From Bacteroidota bacterium (GTDB lineage Bacteria > Bacteroidota > Bacteroidia > UKL13-3), in the NCBI GenBank assembly GCA_027491355.1, contig JAIXWI010000027.1, positions 1 to 38,120 on the forward strand: a DNA stretch of 38,120 nt, given 5' to 3'. Position numbers and translations under genes: made by a program. The notes under the pieces are model-generated. The model did no database searches, was not told the DNA's origin, and saw nothing but the letters and a program-made list of their open reading frames with translations. Below, piece by piece: positions 6,001 through 38,120 of this stretch. Numbering within the stretch: the stretch's first letter is position 1; each line of letters opens with the position of its first letter.

Positions 6001-8652
6001 TTAAATTCTTCTATCGTCGTACCAATCTTTTTTCTTAGGTATTTTTAAATCTTGTAACACACTTGATTTTACATTGATGTTGAATAAGAAATAATTAGTG
6101 CCATAAGCAGAAAGGGGTGTCCAATTAAAAGTAAACTGCCAGCAATGTAAATCTCTTCTCAAGTCTATTGAAATATGCGATATTTTATTGAGTTTGAAGT
6201 CGAACCCTGTATTGAAATTGATGAACCAATTTTTGGTTGGATTGATATTGCCAGATCCAGATAATGTTTGTGTCATTCCTTCGTTTACTTTGCTCAATTT
6301 ACTTCTGTAGTCGTAAGCAACTGTGTAGTTAAAACTAAACGACCATGGAATGTCAAGTGGCATAAATCCAAGCGATTCCATTTCTTTTTTTCTGAGCTTA
6401 ACTTTTTCCTCTTTGCCTTTGAACAAATCTTGGTTCAAACTTGCCGATAAGCCCAAATTTGATGAAGTTAATATGGCTGGAATGCCATTTTCAAAATTGA
6501 ATTGGTTGATACGTCTGTATGATTTAAAAGTACCGCTTTCAACAACAATGTTTTGATAAGGGTCAAAAACTGCCGCACCAATTATTGAAATAAATTTAAA
6601 CAAGGTAGTTCTACCTGAAACATTGATTGTACTTAGGTTCAAGGAATCGGCCAATAAGTTGTAAGAGCCACTACCTCTTATGCTTTCAATGATTTTAACC
6701 TTGGTTACTTTTTGTGCGGTGTCTTTACCTTTTTTCCATTTTATCTCTAGGTTGTTGTCTAAAGAGAAATTGATATTCCCCTGACGACCTGCTCCTGGTC
6801 CTCCAAATAAGGTCCCTTCGAAACGAGAGTATTTCTCAGTATTGCCAGCAGTATCTCTTTGAACATTAGAATAAAAGCCAAATTTGTCAGCACTGAAATC
6901 AGGAGCATAACTGAAATCAGCACTTGGGTTCATTACATGTCTGATTGCAACCAATTTCCCTTTTTTAAAATTCTTCATTCCATACCAACGGGTACTCAAA
7001 CCAGTTCTGAATGAAAAGCTATAGGCACGGTCAAATCCGCTGTTGAAACCTGATTGAATGGTTCTACTTGTTTCATTCCATGTTTTTTGACGGGTTTTAA
7101 AGGTCCAACTTTCATTGTAATCCATGCCCATTGAAATGGTGTAATATTTAAACAGGTTGAAACTGTTTTGTATATTAACGGAGTGTCTTAAGCCATTGTT
7201 AAAAGCGGTATCGGTATATTTCTGCCATTCAGTATTGCTCCTTTCTTTGAACAACAATGAATCTTTGGTATTGATGTTTTGCTGAAACAATCCAGTATAA
7301 TTCATGCTTATTTTCTCATACCAACGATCGGCTGTTGGTTTTGCTTTTGGTTTAAAAGGTTGAAAAGAAGCAACGGTAAATGTAAGGTCAGGAAGTGTTA
7401 AGCTGAGATCTCTGGTTTGTAAATTTTGAGAGGCTCTTGCAGATGCATTTAAACTTTGTTTGCCTTTGTTAAAAACCTTTCCAAAATAAATACTTGAGTT
7501 TAAAACATTGTTGAAGGATTGATTGGAGTATGCGTTGTAAACCAAATACTGATTGCCCACAATATTTACATCCGCTCCAAAAGTAACACCTGGTCTTGCT
7601 TTTGCGTCTACTCTATGATTCCATTGAACTTGGAATGTTTTGAATTGACTGTAGTTGGGGTCCTCAGGATTATTTTGTTTGTTGTACGCATAGTTTGCAT
7701 TGAATGACCCTGCAAATTTGTATTTAAAATTGTAATTGAATCTACTGCCCAATCTCCAACTCGTATTGGTATAGATGTCTCCTAACATGGTCAGGTCATA
7801 ATGGTCTCCCAAGCCTAAATAATACCCACCTTGAGCCAAGAAAAAACCTCGCCCAACCGCATTCCCATAACTCGGGATGATGATCCCCGATTGTTGACCA
7901 CGTTTTAGAGGAAATATACCAAGTGGCACAAAAAGTGGTGTGCGAACCCCTTCAATTACCAAATTAGCAGGACCGGTAATTACTTTGTTACCTGGAATTA
8001 CCTTTAGTTTTTCTGCGGCAATGTAAAAATGCGGATGGTCGTCGCTACAGGTTGTGTAGTAAGAATGATTGATAAAGAAATTGTTGTTCTCGTCGCGTTT
8101 TACCTTTTCACCTTTAATGAAACCCTCACCCTCATTGGTTTTAAACTCCTTCATGATGCCTCGCTTGGTTTCGTAGTTAAAGGTTGCTTCCTCCACTTTG
8201 TATTCACTGCCACCTTGTTTGAAAACTGGTGTTTGGGTTAACTTGTTGGCACTGTCTTTTAGGCCAATTGCATGTACAGTATTTTTATTGATGTTGATGT
8301 CTATCTGGTATGATTTAACTGCTAAGTCTTGATAATTCACATCAGATTCACCATACAGAGTGGAGGTTTTAGTTTCTGTATGGTATACAATAGAATCTTT
8401 ACAAGAGTAACTTACCAACGATTTGAGTGCAGCACTGGTTCTTGGCAAATAATTGCTATCTTTTTTTAAACTGTCTTGTTTTGCTTGTAACAAGCTATCA
8501 ATGGCTAATGCTTCGTAAAATAAACGCTTTGAATATGCTGCTTTAACAAGCATGTGGTTGTTTTTAGCGTTTAACTCAACTGTATGCAATAGCAACAGGC
8601 TTATGATTGCCGACAAAATGCCGAAAATTGTATATTTGCTATTGAATTTCAA
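6001..8652 (-). CDS. lptD: LptD-like outer-membrane LPS assembly protein
   Basis: An 883-residue Bacteroidota-type LptD, the outer-membrane barrel that inserts lipopolysaccharide into the outer leaflet. A hydrophobic N-terminal segment (about residues 9-22) followed by VELNA-K looks like a signal peptide. The region from about 85 to 230 resembles the OstA/LptA-type periplasmic domain, and the rest is rich in alternating aromatic beta-strands ending in a barrel-like C-terminus. The only start that keeps the signal peptide is TTG at 8652-8650: an in-frame stop lies two codons upstream and the next ATG is codon 34. Its first codons carry the promoter of the divergent amidase gene. Recognition rests on overall pattern and length (usual range about 750-950). 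Confidence 0.85.
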   Translation of the reverse strand: MKFNSKYTIFGILSAIISLLLLHTVELNAKNNHMLVKAAYSKRLFYEALAIDSLLQAKQDSLKKDSNYLPRTSAALKSLVSYSCKDSIVYHTETKTSTLYGESDVNYQDLAVKSYQIDININKNTVHAIGLKDSANKLTQTPVFKQGGSEYKVEEATFNYETKRGIMKEFKTNEGEGFIKGEKVKRDENNNFFINHSYYTTCSDDHPHFYIAAEKLKVIPGNKVITGPANLVIEGVRTPLFVPLGIFPLKRGQQSGIIIPSYGNAVGRGFFLAQGGYYLGLGDHYDLTMLGDIYTNTSWRLGSRFNYNFKYKFAGSFNANYAYNKQNNPEDPNYSQFKTFQVQWNHRVDAKARPGVTFGADVNIVGNQYLVYNAYSNQSFNNVLNSSIYFGKVFNKGKQSLNASARASQNLQTRDLSLTLPDLTFTVASFQPFKPKAKPTADRWYEKISMNYTGLFQQNINTKDSLLFKERSNTEWQKYTDTAFNNGLRHSVNIQNSFNLFKYYTISMGMDYNESWTFKTRQKTWNETSRTIQSGFNSGFDRAYSFSFRTGLSTRWYGMKNFKKGKLVAIRHVMNPSADFSYAPDFSADKFGFYSNVQRDTAGNTEKYSRFEGTLFGGPGAGRQGNINFSLDNNLEIKWKKGKDTAQKVTKVKIIESIRGSGSYNLLADSLNLSTINVSGRTTLFKFISIIGAAVFDPYQNIVVESGTFKSYRRINQFNFENGIPAILTSSNLGLSASLNQDLFKGKEEKVKLRKKEMESLGFMPLDIPWSFSFNYTVAYDYRSKLSKVNEGMTQTLSGSGNINPTKNWFINFNTGFDFKLNKISHISIDLRRDLHCWQFTFNWTPLSAYGTNYFLFNINVKSSVLQDLKIPKKKDWYDDRRI
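8607..8638 (+). promoter_or_regulatory. Promoter of amidase-mce genes inside lptD 5' end
   Basis: TATATTTG at 8631-8638 is a perfect -7 box, and TTG at 8607-8609 lies 21 bases upstream as a -33 element. The start would be near 8645. The box overlaps codons 5-8 of lptD on the opposite strand. Confidence 0.6.
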
Positions 8653-8659
8653 TTGTTAA

Positions 8660-9529
8660 ATGAGAATCAGTTTGTTTTTAAAATCTGTTGCAAAACTAAT
8701 CAAAGTGCCAAAATTCCCTAAGCACGAAAAAATTATGCCAATTTATTTGCTCTTTTTGTTTATTGCAGCGGTACCAATTGATCAACCTAAACAAAAGAAA
8801 AAAGGAATTCAAACCGTTATCATTGATGCTGGGCACGGTGGGCATGATGCTGGCTGTATGTATGGTGGTGTCAAGGAAAAAGACCTCACATTGCGCATGG
8901 CTTTGGCGCTTGGAACTCGAATAACTGAGTTGATTCCAGATGTAAAAATTATTTACACGCGCAAAACAGACAAATTTGTTGAGTTATGGGAACGTGCAGA
9001 CATTGCCAACAGAAACAACGCCGATTTATTCATTTCCTTGCATTGCAATTCTTCACCAAATCCAAAAACCTCTGGTACAGAAACATTTGCAATGGGTTTG
9101 CACAAAGCATATAGTAATTTAGCGGTTGCCAAAAGAGAAAACGATGTTTTGTTACTTGAAACCGATTACCAAAACAAGTATGATGGTTTTGATCCCAATT
9201 CGCCTGAATCTCATATTTATTTTTCTTTGTTCCAAAATGCCTACATGGAGCAAAGCATCAAATTTGCATCTAAAGTTGAAGCGCATATTTCTAAATCCGT
9301 TCACCGTCCAAGTAGAGGGGTTAAACAGGCAGGATTTGTGGTGCTCTGGAAAACAGGTATGCCCAGTGTTTTGGTTGAAGCAGGTTTCTTGAGTAATAAA
9401 AGCGACAGAGAATATTTGGGCAGTGAAGAAGGATTGTTCGAATTTTCTAACGCCTTGGCTCTGGCTTTTAAAGATTATAAACTACAATTTGAAGGCGCAA
9501 TCAAACAAAATAATTCAGGTTCCAAATAA
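8660..9529 (+). CDS. N-acetylmuramoyl-L-alanine amidase (Amidase_3 family)
   Basis: A zinc-dependent peptidoglycan amidase that cleaves the bond between MurNAc and the stem peptide. The catalytic domain runs from VIIDAGHGGHDAG to the C-terminus. The expected zinc ligands and catalytic acid appear in GHGG (His), KEKD (Glu), SLHCNSS (His) and VEAGFLSN (Glu), as in AmiC and CwlM relatives. The N-terminus has a short hydrophobic stretch YLLFLFIAAVPI that may be a signal peptide or anchor. Two starts are possible: ATG 8660 (289 aa) and ATG 8735 (264 aa). The second would begin right at the hydrophobic segment and leave the lptD promoter in non-coding DNA. The gene leads a run with an MCE protein and a small membrane peptide, an envelope context. 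Confidence 0.93.
   Translation: MRISLFLKSVAKLIKVPKFPKHEKIMPIYLLFLFIAAVPIDQPKQKKKGIQTVIIDAGHGGHDAGCMYGGVKEKDLTLRMALALGTRITELIPDVKIIYTRKTDKFVELWERADIANRNNADLFISLHCNSSPNPKTSGTETFAMGLHKAYSNLAVAKRENDVLLLETDYQNKYDGFDPNSPESHIYFSLFQNAYMEQSIKFASKVEAHISKSVHRPSRGVKQAGFVVLWKTGMPSVLVEAGFLSNKSDREYLGSEEGLFEFSNALALAFKDYKLQFEGAIKQNNSGSK
8691..8698 (-). promoter_or_regulatory. -7 box of lptD, facing the amidase promoter
   Basis: Minus-strand TAGTTTTG (8698-8691) is a perfect TAnnTTTG box. It would start lptD near 8684 with a leader of about 32 bases. No convincing -33 element is seen. It points toward the plus-strand promoter at 8631-8638, so the two 5' leaders would overlap. Confidence 0.45.
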
Positions 9530-9540
9530 AACTAAAAACG

Positions 9541-9548
9541 TATTTTTG
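9541..9548 (+). promoter_or_regulatory. -7 box upstream of mce gene
   Basis: TATTTTTG is a perfect TAnnTTTG box 14 bases before the ATG of the MCE gene. It implies an own start near 9555 with a leader of about eight bases. No clear -33 element is seen, so it may be a secondary promoter inside the amidase operon. Confidence 0.45.
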
Positions 9549-9562
9549 ACACAAATTCTATC

Positions 9563-10576
9563 ATGATAAAAATAAAAAGGGAAGCGAAGATTGGGTTATT
9601 TGCAGTTGTATCTCTGGCTGCACTGTATTTTGGTTACAATTTTTTAAGAGGTAAGAAGCTGTTTTCAGGACAATACATTTATTATGTAGTATATGATAAC
9701 ATAGATGGAATCAATAAATCAACGCCTATTTATTACAAAGGTTTAAAAGTTGGTCAGGTTGAGGAGCTAGCTTTTTTAGCAACGGACAGTGCTAATAGAA
9801 TCATTGCCTCACTTGCAATTGATAAAAATGTTGTACTGTCTACTTCTACTCAAGCTTGTATTGTTAGTCCAGATATTTTAGGAGGCAAAGCCATTTCTTT
9901 AATTGTACCTGATATCATCAATCCAATTGCTAAGGGAGATACCATTGATGGCACACAGGAAATTGGAATTGGGGAATCTATTTCTGGGATGATAGAGCCT
10001 GTTAAAAATAAAACAGAAAATGTGTTGGTTTCCTTGAATAAAGTGTTAGGCGAATTGCAGGTTGTATTGGGCAACGGTGGGTCGCAGCAATTGGCTTCTG
10101 GCCTAGAAGATTTATCCATTACTATGAAAAACTTGAGCCAAGTAAGCTCAAACTTAAACGCCATTGTCAAAAGCGAGTCAGATCATATTGCAAAATCATT
10201 GGCAAATGTTGAATCACTCACCACCAATTTGAAAAACAACAACAAAGAAATAGCAAGTAGCATACAAAATGTGCATGCCATATCGGATTCACTGTCGAAA
10301 GCTCCTGTAAAAAGTATGATTGTAGAATTGAATGAAACTGCAAAATCGCTCAACCAGTTAGCTCAAAAACTCAATACTGGTAATGGCTCTGCGGCAAAGC
10401 TTATAAGTGATTCTATGTTGTACAACAACCTCAATCAATCGGCTTTTGAATTACAAGCTTTGTTAAAAGATTTAAGAACTTACCCAGCAAGGTATGTCAA
10501 TGTTTCTGTTTTTGGAAATGCTGCTCAAAAAGCAGACAAACAGCGTGCAAAAGATTTGAAAAAAGGCAATAAATAA
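9563..10576 (+). CDS. MCE (MlaD-like) lipid-transport protein
   Basis: A 337-residue MlaD-family protein. The N-terminal membrane anchor (about residues 10-26, GLFAVVSLAALYFGYNF) is followed by one MCE domain (about 37-117), including DNIDGINKSTPIYYKGLKVGQV and ILGGKAISL. A long helical, Asn/Ser/Lys-rich tail covers about 130-320. Single-MCE proteins form hexamers that move phospholipids between inner and outer membrane with an MlaEF-type ABC transporter, but mlaE and mlaF are not in the window. The helical tail fits a tube or bridge across the periplasm, as in PqiB or LetB-like proteins (inference). It follows the amidase by 33 bases and is followed after nine bases by a micropeptide gene. 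Confidence 0.9.
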   Translation: MIKIKREAKIGLFAVVSLAALYFGYNFLRGKKLFSGQYIYYVVYDNIDGINKSTPIYYKGLKVGQVEELAFLATDSANRIIASLAIDKNVVLSTSTQACIVSPDILGGKAISLIVPDIINPIAKGDTIDGTQEIGIGESISGMIEPVKNKTENVLVSLNKVLGELQVVLGNGGSQQLASGLEDLSITMKNLSQVSSNLNAIVKSESDHIAKSLANVESLTTNLKNNNKEIASSIQNVHAISDSLSKAPVKSMIVELNETAKSLNQLAQKLNTGNGSAAKLISDSMLYNNLNQSAFELQALLKDLRTYPARYVNVSVFGNAAQKADKQRAKDLKKGNK

Positions 10577-32482: not shown

Positions 32483-32514
32483 TTTCAAACCAAGCTGAAA
32501 AGTTCGGTTTGAAA
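32483..32514 (+). promoter_or_regulatory. GAAA-capped hairpin in the leader of the giant gene
   Basis: TTTCAAACC (32483-32491) pairs perfectly with GGTTTGAAA (32506-32514). After one A-C mismatch the stem continues with A-T, G-U, C-G and T-A pairs and closes on the tetraloop GAAA (32497-32500), a GNRA type. It ends 15 bases before the ATG and has no U tract, so it is not a terminator. A stabilising 5' hairpin, a regulatory RNA element or a DNA operator are possible. Confidence 0.6.
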
Positions 32515-32529
32515 GTAATAAACAGAACA

Positions 32530-35500
32530 ATGAAGAAAATGACTAAACCCATTCAGAAAGCTAAATTAATTGTTTTCAGTTTGATGCTTTTTTTACTCCT
32601 TAGTACAAGTACATTATTAGCACAAGTAACGGTTAGTGGGGCCCTTGTAGGAAATGGTTCATACACTACATTGAATGCTGCTACAGCTGCCATCAATGCT
32701 GGTGTGCAAACAGGTGCTAACATTGTCATTAGCATTACTGGTAACACCTCAGAAGGTTCCTCTCAGATTTTACTAGGGTCTGGTGCATGGAATACCTTAC
32801 AAATAACACCTGTAGGAGGAAATTTCACAATCTCAGGAACTACAACTGCTGGTATTCCAATGCTTGATTTTAATGGTGCAGACAATGTTACAATCAATGG
32901 AAAAAATAATGGAACAGAGTCTTTAACCATTGTTAACAATTCAACCTCATCTTCATCAGGAACTGCAACCATTCGCTTTATCAACGATGCCAAATACAAT
33001 TTAGTTACAAATTGTACCATATTAGGAGGAGCAACAGTTGGACAACTTTCAAACGGAGGAACTATATTCTTTTCTACAGCAAATTCAGGAGGAACTGGAA
33101 ATGACAGTAACACCATTTCATTCAACAATATTGGACCAATCAGTGCTTCACTTTTGCCTGTAAAAGCAATTTATGCCAATGGCACTACTACAAATACTGC
33201 AATTAACAACAGCAACAACGCTATTGTAGGTAATCATATTTACGATTTTTTTGCCGCAGCCTCAAATAGCAATGGAATATATGTAAATGTTGGTAATACA
33301 GCATGGTCAATCTCTGCCAATAAATTTTATCAAACTGCATCCAGAACCATTACAACTGCATCCTCAAATAATCCAATTCAAATTGCCAACACAACTGCTG
33401 GAAGTGGCGAAAATTTTGTCATTACAAACAATATCATTGGTTATTCATCGGCGGCAGGTACTGGAACCTATACCATTGCAGGAACTGTAGCTTCATTGTT
33501 CAACGGAATAATAGTAAGTGCGGCAACAAGCTCTGTGAACAACCAAATAACAGGCAATGTCATTTCTGATATTTCATTGACTACTTCAAGCTCTTCCACA
33601 ACCGGAGGTGGCTATCCTTTTGCAGGTATCAACATTACTACATCTTGTAGCACAGTTTTTGTAAATTCCAATAGAATTAGAAATATTTTGGTTACTGGTA
33701 CAGGTACAGGAAACATTGCAGCAATCGATGTAAACGGATCGTCATCAGGTACATTTCATATTAATAACAATGTAATCAATTCAATTTCAAGAACCTCTAA
33801 CGGATCACTTTATGGAATAAGGTATGCCTCTCCAAACAATGTTATTGTAAACGGCGACTCTGTCACAAATTTGGCCATAAACAATACAAGTTCAACTTCA
33901 GTTTTAGCCGCCATTTTTGGTGCATCAAGTGGAGTGAATGTTACGTATACCAATAATTATATAGCCAATTTAACTTCAACCTCAACCGGCTCAATATCCA
34001 TCATTGGTTTAAGAGAATTTGGTTCATCAGGTAACAAAGTATATGCAAACAATACCATATTGAATTTGTCATTGCCAAATACCAGCACTGGAACAATTAC
34101 TGGTATCAGCGTATCGGCGAGCAGTTCGCCAAATGCAATGGAAATCAGTAGGAATACAATAGGTTCATTTACAGGCGGAACAACTCATTATGGCATCAAT
34201 CAGGCATCAAGTTCAACAGTAGTTAATTTATTCAGAAATAAGATATACGGCTTCACTGCTAACAATGCATTGGGATTGTGTTTTGGCATTTACTGTTCTT
34301 CAGGAACTACTCACAATATTTACAACAATGTCATTGGCGATTTACAAGCAGTTGCTTCAACCGGAACCAATTCTGTTGTAGGAATAGGAGGTGTAGCAAC
34401 TTCAACCTACAATGTGTTTTTTAACAATGTTGTTTTAAGAGCTACCAGTACCTCTACTACAACATTTGGAACAAGTTGTATCAGTTTAACGAGTACAGCA
34501 ACTCAAATTAATCTTAGAAACAATGTATTGGTTAACCTTTCAACACCAGCACAAGAATCGGCTAATTTGGCTTCTAATGGAATTGCTGCTGTTGTAAGAA
34601 TTTCAGGAGGAACCGCTAACACCGTACCTTCTAACTACTCTACAGCGTGTAACAAGAATTTATTTTGGTGTAATCCTGCTGCCGGAACTAATAACCACCT
34701 AACCTATGTTGAGGGCACATCAACAATTACAAATCCGAGAAACACATTGGCAAATGTTAAAAGTTTTTTTGTGAATAGGGAGCAAGGTTCGGTAGAGGAG
34801 TCATTAGGAAGTAACAACACTAATTTGAGTAATCTTACCAGCTTAACTGGAACTGACCTCAACTACCTTGCTATTGCGAATGGAACCTCTTCGCAAGCTG
34901 AAAGTGGTGCCGATGTCATTACTACACCTTCTATTGTTGATGATTTTTTCGGAAATTCAGGAAATAGAGCTTCTTCTCCTGATATTGGAGCGCATGAATT
35001 CAATGGATTATCTCCTGCACCAAATCTCAGTTTAAATTCAATCACTCCTGCATCAAATCAATGTTCAGCAACACCAAGATTGGTATCTTTAAATGCTACA
35101 ACACCAGCAGGAACCGTAACAGGAGTGTCTTTAACTTACAACAACGGAGCAGGCAATACCACAGTAGCAATGGTCAATACAACTGGCAATACATGGGAGT
35201 TTACCATACCAGCTGCTGTACCAACCAACGCCACAGTAACGTGGAGTGCTTTGGTTACAAGTTCAATTGGATTAACAAGGTCATACGCTGGTGCTTCATA
35301 CCAAGACGATCCTTTGTTTGGAGTAACAGCTCAGGTAAGTAGTTCTTCAAATCCAATTTGTATAGGTTCTACTGTTAATTTATCGGCTATCATGTTAAGA
35401 CCTACTACGCTTACTTTAGGCGCAGGGGCTTCAACTTCTTCAGGCGCTGGTTCAACATTTTTACCAGGCTCTTGGGGTGGTGCCAAAACTCAATACCTCA

Positions 35501-38120
35501 TTAGAGCTTCTGAGTTAACAGCAATGGGTTTGAGAGCAGGCAATATTACATCTTTGGGGTTTGAACCAACTACAGCAGGACAAACATATACAGGTTTTAG
35601 TGTAAGTGTTGGGCATACTGCTGTAAATGCAATGAATACAGCATTTATAACAGCAGGTTTAACTCAAGTATTTGCCGGAACCTTAACCAATAATGGTTTC
35701 TTGCCTGTAGCAAATACTGTCAATACCTTAAATTTTGGTACAGGTACTGGCTCAGCATCTTCATTCAATTGGGATGGTGTTTCCAATATTGTAGTGACTT
35801 TCAGTTGGAGCAGTGTGCCATCAGCAACTACTTCTTCATCGTCTACCATGAGAGTAGATGCTCCTGGTTATACTTGTACAGTTTATGCTCAAAATGATAG
35901 TTATACACCCGCTGCCATGTTAGCAGTTACCACAGGAACTACAGCATCTAACAGGCCAAGATTTACTTTTACTGGAAATGCTGGAGCGGCTATTACTTCA
36001 ATTTCATGGAGCGATGGAAACAATACAATTGGTTCAACCAATCCAATTGCAGTTACAGCAAGTTCAACTACAACCTATTCTGCAACTTTAAGTGCAGCGG
36101 GATGTACATTTAATAGCGTACCTTCTGTTACATTAAATGTGGCAAATCCACCTGCTACGCCTACTGCCATTGATGCCTTTAGTTGTCCTGGTTTATCAAA
36201 TGCAATGGTTGTTTCTAACTCAACATTCACTACCACTAAATTTAAATGGTATAACCAAGCAGTAGGTGGAAGCTTATTGCAAAATTCAACTGCAAATAAG
36301 TACCAATTACCACTTTCAGTTGCAACCACTTTTCACGTTTCAGAAATTGATACAACCACACAATGTGAATCGCAGAGGGTTCAGTTAAATGCTGGAATCA
36401 ATACCTTAACCATAACACCAACTACAGGTTCATTTTGTGCTGGTGCCGGAGCTAAATTAGATTCTCTGTATGCTACATCTTCTAACATTCAGTTTACCTC
36501 ATTCACTTGGAATAAACTTACCCCATCAGCTAATTTTACAGGAACTACCTCAGGTTCGGCAACTGAAGTTTCAATTACACAAACCAGTGATTTTTCTTTA
36601 ACCGCTTCAGATGGAAATTGTTCTCAAACAGCATTTGTTTCAATTGGGGTCTATGACTTCCCAATACCGAATTTATCCGTAACTCCAAATGATACAGTTA
36701 CCCAAGGTACTCAGTTTACAGTTAACTCTGGTTTAAGTGCAGGAAACTTCTCTGTTGCTAAAATACCATTTGCACCATTTACCGCACCGAGTAACCAAAC
36801 ATTCTTATGTAACGCTGGAAGTACAACGGCACCAAATGGTACTACCTTAAGCAGTGGTGATTTAGATGATGGTGGTTGGCTCAACATTCCGCTCGGATTT
36901 AGTTTCAACTATTTTGGTAAATCATACAGCAACATTTCAGTTGGTACGAACGGCACCATGATGTTTGGATTAACCAGTGCAACTCCATTAAATACTTATA
37001 CTTTCACAGGCGGATTTCCATCTACCTCTAATCCTGCAAATGTCATTGCAGCAGTTAGTCAGGATAACAGGTTAACAACTGCAGGTAGTATCTCATACTG
37101 GACCACTGGCTATGCACCTAACAGAAAGTTTGTAACACAATACAATGCTGTACCAGCTTATAATTCATCGGGCTTTACTACTGCTCAGGTAATTTTGTTT
37201 GAAACTACAGGTATCATAGAAATTCACATCACAAATTCTACAACTTCATATGCAAAGTATGTAGGCTTGCAAGACAGTTCAAGAACAATTGGTGCAGCGC
37301 CAATTAATGGTGCAACAGCAACCATTACAACAAGCACTGCATACCGCTTCTCGCCACCAAGTAACTACAGTACTGTATGGTCTCCTTCCCTTAATTTAAC
37401 TGGAGCAACATCAGGTACCAATGTTTTCAATACAGCAACAAACTTTGCAACAACTGGTCCATACAATGTTAGTTTAACACTAACCAATTTGGTTACAGGT
37501 TGTACCAATGCGGCAGCTCCATCATCAATAGATTTATGGGTGGTAGATGCGCCGCTCTCTCCAGTTACACAAGGTACAACCATTTGCGGACCTAAAACAG
37601 CAACAATAACAGTAACCAATGCAGCAAGTTTATTGCCATCAGATTCAATTACATGGTATGATGCTGCCATTGGAGGAAATTTAGTTGGTAGGGGTGCAGT
37701 TTTCAATACACCATTGGTTGCTGCAACAACAACTTATTTTGCAGAAACGTATAATTTATATGGTAAAAATATAGGTGGAAGGGTGCCTACATTAGTAACT
37801 TATGTTGCACCACCAGCTTTGCCTATAAGTAGCAATCAAACAGTTTGTAACAACAATGTTTCCAGCTTAACCGTTACCTCACAAAATACAACTTATACCA
37901 ATTTCGATTGGACACCAATTACAAATTTATTTGACGATCCAAGTTGTACCAATCCTGTAGTAAGTGGGGGTAATTATTTTACTGTTTATTTCAAATCAAA
38001 TACGCCTGGTTCTGTAGTATATACTTGTACTGGAAGTAATGTAGTTGGTTGTAAAGAAACAGCATCTTCAATTGTTACTGTTCAACCTGCAGCAAGTGCA
38101 CTGACTATTGCGCCATTAAC
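32530..38120 (+). CDS. Giant secreted surface protein, beta-helix plus Ig-like and nidogen-like modules (partial, 3' end beyond window)
   Basis: An open frame of at least 1,863 codons from ATG 32530 to the window edge with no stop or frameshift. The signal peptide is MKKMTKPIQKAKLIVFSLML then an LLL core, cleaved after LLA31. Residues about 35-825 are Ser/Thr/Asn/Gly-rich with repeated N-N-x-I and NAIxGNxI patterns typical of a right-handed parallel beta-helix, closing with SPDIGAHEF (818-ish), a choice-of-anchor-Q-like ending. Then follow a module with CIGSTVNLSA and TQYLIRASEL (about 940-1160) and Ig-like domains of the CHU_C-associated type (about 1205-1275 and 1672-1755, with ITWYDAAIGG). 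A nidogen-like module (about 1440-1612, FNYFGKSYSNISVGTNG) lies between them. It is probably an adhesin or matrix protein; a T9SS C-terminal domain is expected downstream but not seen. Confidence 0.88.
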   Translation, partial: MKKMTKPIQKAKLIVFSLMLFLLLSTSTLLAQVTVSGALVGNGSYTTLNAATAAINAGVQTGANIVISITGNTSEGSSQILLGSGAWNTLQITPVGGNFTISGTTTAGIPMLDFNGADNVTINGKNNGTESLTIVNNSTSSSSGTATIRFINDAKYNLVTNCTILGGATVGQLSNGGTIFFSTANSGGTGNDSNTISFNNIGPISASLLPVKAIYANGTTTNTAINNSNNAIVGNHIYDFFAAASNSNGIYVNVGNTAWSISANKFYQTASRTITTASSNNPIQIANTTAGSGENFVITNNIIGYSSAAGTGTYTIAGTVASLFNGIIVSAATSSVNNQITGNVISDISLTTSSSSTTGGGYPFAGINITTSCSTVFVNSNRIRNILVTGTGTGNIAAIDVNGSSSGTFHINNNVINSISRTSNGSLYGIRYASPNNVIVNGDSVTNLAINNTSSTSVLAAIFGASSGVNVTYTNNYIANLTSTSTGSISIIGLREFGSSGNKVYANNTILNLSLPNTSTGTITGISVSASSSPNAMEISRNTIGSFTGGTTHYGINQASSSTVVNLFRNKIYGFTANNALGLCFGIYCSSGTTHNIYNNVIGDLQAVASTGTNSVVGIGGVATSTYNVFFNNVVLRATSTSTTTFGTSCISLTSTATQINLRNNVLVNLSTPAQESANLASNGIAAVVRISGGTANTVPSNYSTACNKNLFWCNPAAGTNNHLTYVEGTSTITNPRNTLANVKSFFVNREQGSVEESLGSNNTNLSNLTSLTGTDLNYLAIANGTSSQAESGADVITTPSIVDDFFGNSGNRASSPDIGAHEFNGLSPAPNLSLNSITPASNQCSATPRLVSLNATTPAGTVTGVSLTYNNGAGNTTVAMVNTTGNTWEFTIPAAVPTNATVTWSALVTSSIGLTRSYAGASYQDDPLFGVTAQVSSSSNPICIGSTVNLSAIMLRPTTLTLGAGASTSSGAGSTFLPGSWGGAKTQYLIRASELTAMGLRAGNITSLGFEPTTAGQTYTGFSVSVGHTAVNAMNTAFITAGLTQVFAGTLTNNGFLPVANTVNTLNFGTGTGSASSFNWDGVSNIVVTFSWSSVPSATTSSSSTMRVDAPGYTCTVYAQNDSYTPAAMLAVTTGTTASNRPRFTFTGNAGAAITSISWSDGNNTIGSTNPIAVTASSTTTYSATLSAAGCTFNSVPSVTLNVANPPATPTAIDAFSCPGLSNAMVVSNSTFTTTKFKWYNQAVGGSLLQNSTANKYQLPLSVATTFHVSEIDTTTQCESQRVQLNAGINTLTITPTTGSFCAGAGAKLDSLYATSSNIQFTSFTWNKLTPSANFTGTTSGSATEVSITQTSDFSLTASDGNCSQTAFVSIGVYDFPIPNLSVTPNDTVTQGTQFTVNSGLSAGNFSVAKIPFAPFTAPSNQTFLCNAGSTTAPNGTTLSSGDLDDGGWLNIPLGFSFNYFGKSYSNISVGTNGTMMFGLTSATPLNTYTFTGGFPSTSNPANVIAAVSQDNRLTTAGSISYWTTGYAPNRKFVTQYNAVPAYNSSGFTTAQVILFETTGIIEIHITNSTTSYAKYVGLQDSSRTIGAAPINGATATITTSTAYRFSPPSNYSTVWSPSLNLTGATSGTNVFNTATNFATTGPYNVSLTLTNLVTGCTNAAAPSSIDLWVVDAPLSPVTQGTTICGPKTATITVTNAASLLPSDSITWYDAAIGGNLVGRGAVFNTPLVAATTTYFAETYNLYGKNIGGRVPTLVTYVAPPALPISSNQTVCNNNVSSLTVTSQNTTYTNFDWTPITNLFDDPSCTNPVVSGGNYFTVYFKSNTPGSVVYTCTGSNVVGCKETASSIVTVQPAASALTIAPL

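Follow-up and report, generated by a model that had tools for sequence, protein, structure and literature searches.

The lptD gene and the adjoining gene for an N-acetylmuramoyl-L-alanine amidase probably form, in Bacteroidota, a compact divergent pair with facing sigma-A promoters. Face-to-face promoters with overlapping antisense 5' ends had been proposed by the original prediction for a single stretch of 38,120 nucleotides (the window); the present analysis predicts them as well, and finds the arrangement repeated at this pair of genes throughout the phylum. As judged from sequence, a layout of known type has here a new instance, which extends over the whole phylum. In the window, the lptD ORF, encoding the LPS-assembly outer-membrane protein (6001..8652, minus strand; Pfam LptD_2, 1.2e-151), starts with a TTG at 8652, and the amidase gene (8660..9529, plus strand; Pfam Amidase_3, 3.7e-46) starts with an ATG at 8660. 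The two divergent start codons are only 7 bp apart, so that each promoter falls within the first codons of the other gene. The amidase gene is followed on its 3' side by an MlaD/MCE-domain gene (9563..10576, plus strand; Pfam MlaD, 1.5e-13), which features a motif match of its own, TATTTTTG, at 9541-9548. The MlaD gene is found downstream of the amidase, on the same strand, in 93 of 110 loci.

Two -7 boxes had been claimed at 8631-8638 on the plus strand and at 8698-8691 on the minus strand, and a sequence check located both there. The plus box, TATATTTG, lies inside lptD codons 5-8 and reads into the amidase gene, whose promoter it would constitute (predicted start at about 8643). The minus box, TAGTTTTG, reads into lptD, and is the predicted lptD promoter (start at about 8686). 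This box had been described as located just beyond the first lptD codons; the coordinates are correct, and the box actually sits within the amidase reading frame, at codons 11-13. Thus, the box inside lptD is predicted to serve the amidase, and the box inside the amidase gene to serve lptD. No other correctly oriented exact TANNTTTG sites were found near the starts of the two genes. Both boxes match the -7 box TANNTTTG of the Bacteroidota primary sigma (sigma-ABfr), with a C next on the 3' side. They had been called perfect, which holds for the loose consensus TANNTTTG but not for the minus box at position -10, where TAGTTTTG has a disfavoured G. The preference for no G at -10 and -9, which is not absolute, is respected by the plus box. 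The revised consensus in F. johnsoniae is TAHHTTTG, and G at -10 is nearly absent from promoters (PMC6847099); in the genome of the window, 5 of 56 boxes (9%) found at promoter position carry it. The -33 TTTG element amounts to a weak TT(T)G signal, both in the genome and at aligned promoters, and is weak in F. johnsoniae too (PMC6847099). A weak -33-like TTG (8607..8609, plus strand) precedes the plus box by 21 bp, a spacing that differs by 2 bp from that of the weak own-genome signal.

In the published geometry the -7 box spans -12 to -5 (PMC9723704), and the box-to-start spacing in F. johnsoniae is 4-5 nt (PMC6847099). A box at -12 to -5 places the predicted starts at about 8643 (plus) and 8686 (minus), and the two transcripts would have complementary 5' ends of about 44 nt (8643..8686), with both start codons inside. 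Starts at about 8645 and 8684, and an overlap of about 40 bases, had been originally proposed, which is close to the recomputed values. In other loci the predicted overlap ranges from 3 to 57 nt, and is often near 20 or 43.

The start of the amidase, believed to be ambiguous between 8660 and 8735, is resolved to 8660, and 8735 is rejected, on two grounds: relatives conserve a 25-residue N-terminal extension but not the Met at 8735, and of the two candidates only 8660 has the plus box at modal distance. The claim that lptD must use a TTG start found support: an in-frame TAA (8658-8656) is located two codons upstream, and no alternative start is available upstream. The TTG also fits a phylum-wide shortage of ATG at lptD starts. 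Outside the family to which the window locus belongs, an in-frame ATG is missing in the first 40 ORF codons of 40/69 lptD genes, versus 9/69 amidase genes; the corresponding figure for long ORFs of the window genome is 13/176. Within the family, the search pattern matched 35 loci, and the aligned lptD start position is TTG in 21 of these and ATG in 7. All this suggests that a non-ATG (TTG) start of lptD is widespread across the phylum, and the annotated start of the gene may be wrong in many genomes.

Own-genome counts were made in a 388-kb sample of the genome of the window, which has a G+C content of 36%. In the window, the bare TANNTTTG shows no excess over expectation (48 sites versus 57.8 expected). 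It peaks 11-40 bp 5' of start codons, where 52 boxes were counted versus 9 in the opposite-strand (reverse-complement) control (286 starts, 388 kb). The plus box, at -29 from the ATG at 8660, falls in the highest bin of this promoter peak, and the minus box, at -46 from the TTG at 8652, at its edge. Among the 45 divergent gene pairs of the 388-kb sample, lptD/amidase is the sole one with facing boxes.

The layout was compared across a collection of 147 different amidase loci, of which 60 belong to the own family and 87 are others, mostly from named Bacteroidota genomes. The named loci, 80 in number, were the best among more than 500 candidates, and the genomes are related, so that the shuffle expectations reported here should be read as a guide rather than as probabilities; similarly, the loci share descent, and the counts are not those of independent events. 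lptD is adjacent and divergent to the amidase in all the 128 loci in which it was matched. By a strict count, the minus box is present in 54/59 family loci and in 45/69 loci elsewhere in the phylum; when all loci are considered, a box in the corresponding zone is found in 55/60 family loci and in 58/87 others, 7.3 and 7.8 being expected from first-order shuffles. Pairs of boxes facing each other at a distance of 10-80 were found in 11/60 family loci and 43/87 others, against about one expected in each set (1.1 for the others), and back-to-back pairs in 6/60 and 6/87, respectively. Where lptD was confirmed, facing exact pairs with a plus-to-minus distance of 17-80 are present in 11/59 and 40/69 loci; both boxes are also located 11-60 bp 5' of a possible start codon in 8/59 and 15/69. 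Plus-to-minus distances cluster near 36 and 58-63, and the window pair measures 60. The minus box was also found in 6 of the 16 usable amidase loci lacking a recognised adjoining lptD, a set which makes thus a weak negative control. In four Flavobacterium loci (L065, L071, L099 and L105) two minus boxes, 23 bp apart, lie opposite one plus box, and may mark two alternative lptD start sites. No description of the lptD/amidase facing layout was found in an open-access literature search. Neither lptD nor an amidase is mentioned in the main text of the F. psychrophilum transcriptome paper, nor is an amidase in the B. thetaiotaomicron paper.

Conservation of the motifs, on which the original prediction was made to depend, holds for the lptD box and largely fails, within the own family, for the exact amidase box. 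The latter is identical in the congener G003, is absent at the same place in a third congener (G002), and is missing at the aligned position in most of the family. When the search was relaxed, one-mismatch boxes recurred weakly in the family (d=25 and d=31, 6 loci each), and no amidase promoter could be pinpointed in the large sister genus (g3). Plus boxes are common in non-family loci, where they mostly read TATTTTTG; in Flavobacteriaceae, they are located 5' of the lptD TTG, within the lptD reading frame. In 17 family loci, mostly of one sister genus (for example, L004:1361-1368 in the oriented locus), lptD also contains an exact plus-strand TANNTTTG at a constant distance of about 141 bp ahead of the minus box. 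It may be either a distant amidase promoter or a case of lptD coding conservation.

The minus box mostly falls, in the family, within a coding block for AKL or TNL, and TANNTTTG is a common sequence, with 48 copies in the window. The minus box could hence be kept merely by protein constraint on the amidase N-terminus, the plus box being a chance match in AT-rich sequence. We consider this highly improbable. In the family, the lptD box usually spans amidase codons xCA-AAN-NTA, and the leucine codon within the box is CTA in 45 of the 47 in-frame loci, although CTA accounts for 6.5% of the leucine codons of the genome; when one locus per genus is taken, CTA is found in 8 of 9 genera (P ~3e-9 under codon usage). 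The sequence CAAANNTA is kept while the encoded residues vary among AKL, TKL, TNL and ANL. The box occurs in three reading frames, and nine family entries, some of which are possibly secondary matches, have it in another frame. In other families it often lies 5' of the amidase ORF, in non-coding DNA. Together, the CTA bias, the residue changes that spare the box, its presence in different frames and its occurrence in non-coding DNA exclude protein constraint as the cause of minus-box conservation, and point to the conserved box as a DNA element. As to the plus box, its position within the genome promoter peak (52 versus 9) makes chance unlikely, though possible, for that single site. The G at -10 of the lptD box is found in most family loci, in 23/66 non-family loci, and in 14/36 of those in which the box is non-coding, versus 5/56 promoter-position boxes of the window genome.

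The facing architecture is also compatible with a by-product of compaction. An ancestor would have brought two housekeeping genes tightly together in head-to-head orientation, and overlap or interference would have no regulatory role. The spacing of the start codons by itself forces the promoters to face each other, the overlap varies in length (3-57 nt), and the family shows poor conservation of the plus box. Yet the boxes face each other also in many non-family loci with start codons 40-67 bp apart, and the other divergent pairs of the window genome, mostly separated by 60-200 bp, are back to back where both boxes were seen at promoter distance (388 kb). On balance, this explanation comes close to an even chance, and deserves more weight than a divergent excludon, in which the overlapping 5' ends would act as antisense RNAs, and high expression of one gene would silence the other through duplex formation or RNase III cleavage. 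The original prediction had suggested that expression of the two genes could be mutually exclusive or RNA-regulated. An excludon would fit the window and several other loci, where the predicted overlap takes in both start codons. In several loci, however, the predicted overlap is shorter than 15 nt and leaves both start codons outside; moreover, growing cells need both LPS export and cell-wall maintenance, so that at steady state one would not expect the two genes to exclude each other. We regard the excludon as unlikely.

Face-to-face promoters reportedly form a classical class of divergent layouts (Beck and Warren, 1988). As in that class, opposite-strand promoters would fire toward each other and 5' ends would overlap, as deduced here from sequence and box geometry. 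The lptD/amidase promoters differ from classical cases in being of the Bacteroidota sigma-A type, in lying within each other's coding regions, and in accompanying a single pair of genes throughout a phylum, with no known regulator. Excludons described in Listeria and Edwardsiella (PMC4179725, PMC10936155) share with them divergent neighbours and overlapping antisense transcription, here predicted, but feature a long antisense leader running through the neighbour gene, whereas here the predicted overlap is limited to a few tens of nucleotides of 5' end. Similarly, in bidirectional promoters with a shared -10 element two units are transcribed from one short region, with possible competition for polymerase (PMC12825309, PMC10268837). 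In these, opposite-strand starts flank, or fall within, one -10 element (PMC12825309); in the lptD/amidase pair, two separate boxes, 52 bp apart, face each other in place of one pseudo-symmetric -10 element.

At the lptD/amidase pair, RNA polymerases leaving the two predicted promoters would converge, and the resulting mRNAs would be complementary over their first 44 nt or so, a stretch extending over both start codons. The G at -10 in the lptD box, together with the TTG start, would ensure a low, steady lptD output. The low-output lptD promoter would be opposed by a stronger promoter of common type serving the amidase and MlaD genes, and this stronger promoter, through occlusion or head-on collision of polymerases, would hinder lptD more than it would itself be hindered. 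Interference between polymerases firing head-on at such distances is plausible. In E. coli, bidirectional promoters whose basal activity is low are reported not to compete for polymerase (PMC12825309). Asymmetric interference, with the lptD promoter as the more sensitive partner, is proposed tentatively, as a possibility somewhat short of even. A regulatory node, in which facing promoters, weak lptD box and non-ATG start would hold LPS export below the amidase-MlaD operon, in inverse coupling, throughout the phylum and with no dedicated regulator, seems rather doubtful; were it true, LPS delivery to the outer membrane would be balanced against peptidoglycan cleavage and lipid transport.

To our knowledge, little is known on the balance that Bacteroidota strike between exporting LPS, moving lipids to or from the outer membrane and cleaving the wall. 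A conserved facing pair of predicted promoters for lptD and the amidase-MlaD operon is a concrete place for studying coupling without a transcription factor. A putative promoter held in codons by synonymous constraint, and the non-ATG start of an essential outer-membrane gene, are useful for the annotation of gene starts in the phylum. Far from this locus, the window hosts an ORF of 1870 aa (32509-38118, plus strand) running past the window end. It has a signal-peptide-like start and Ser/Thr/Asn-rich repeats, and probably encodes a large secreted or surface protein.
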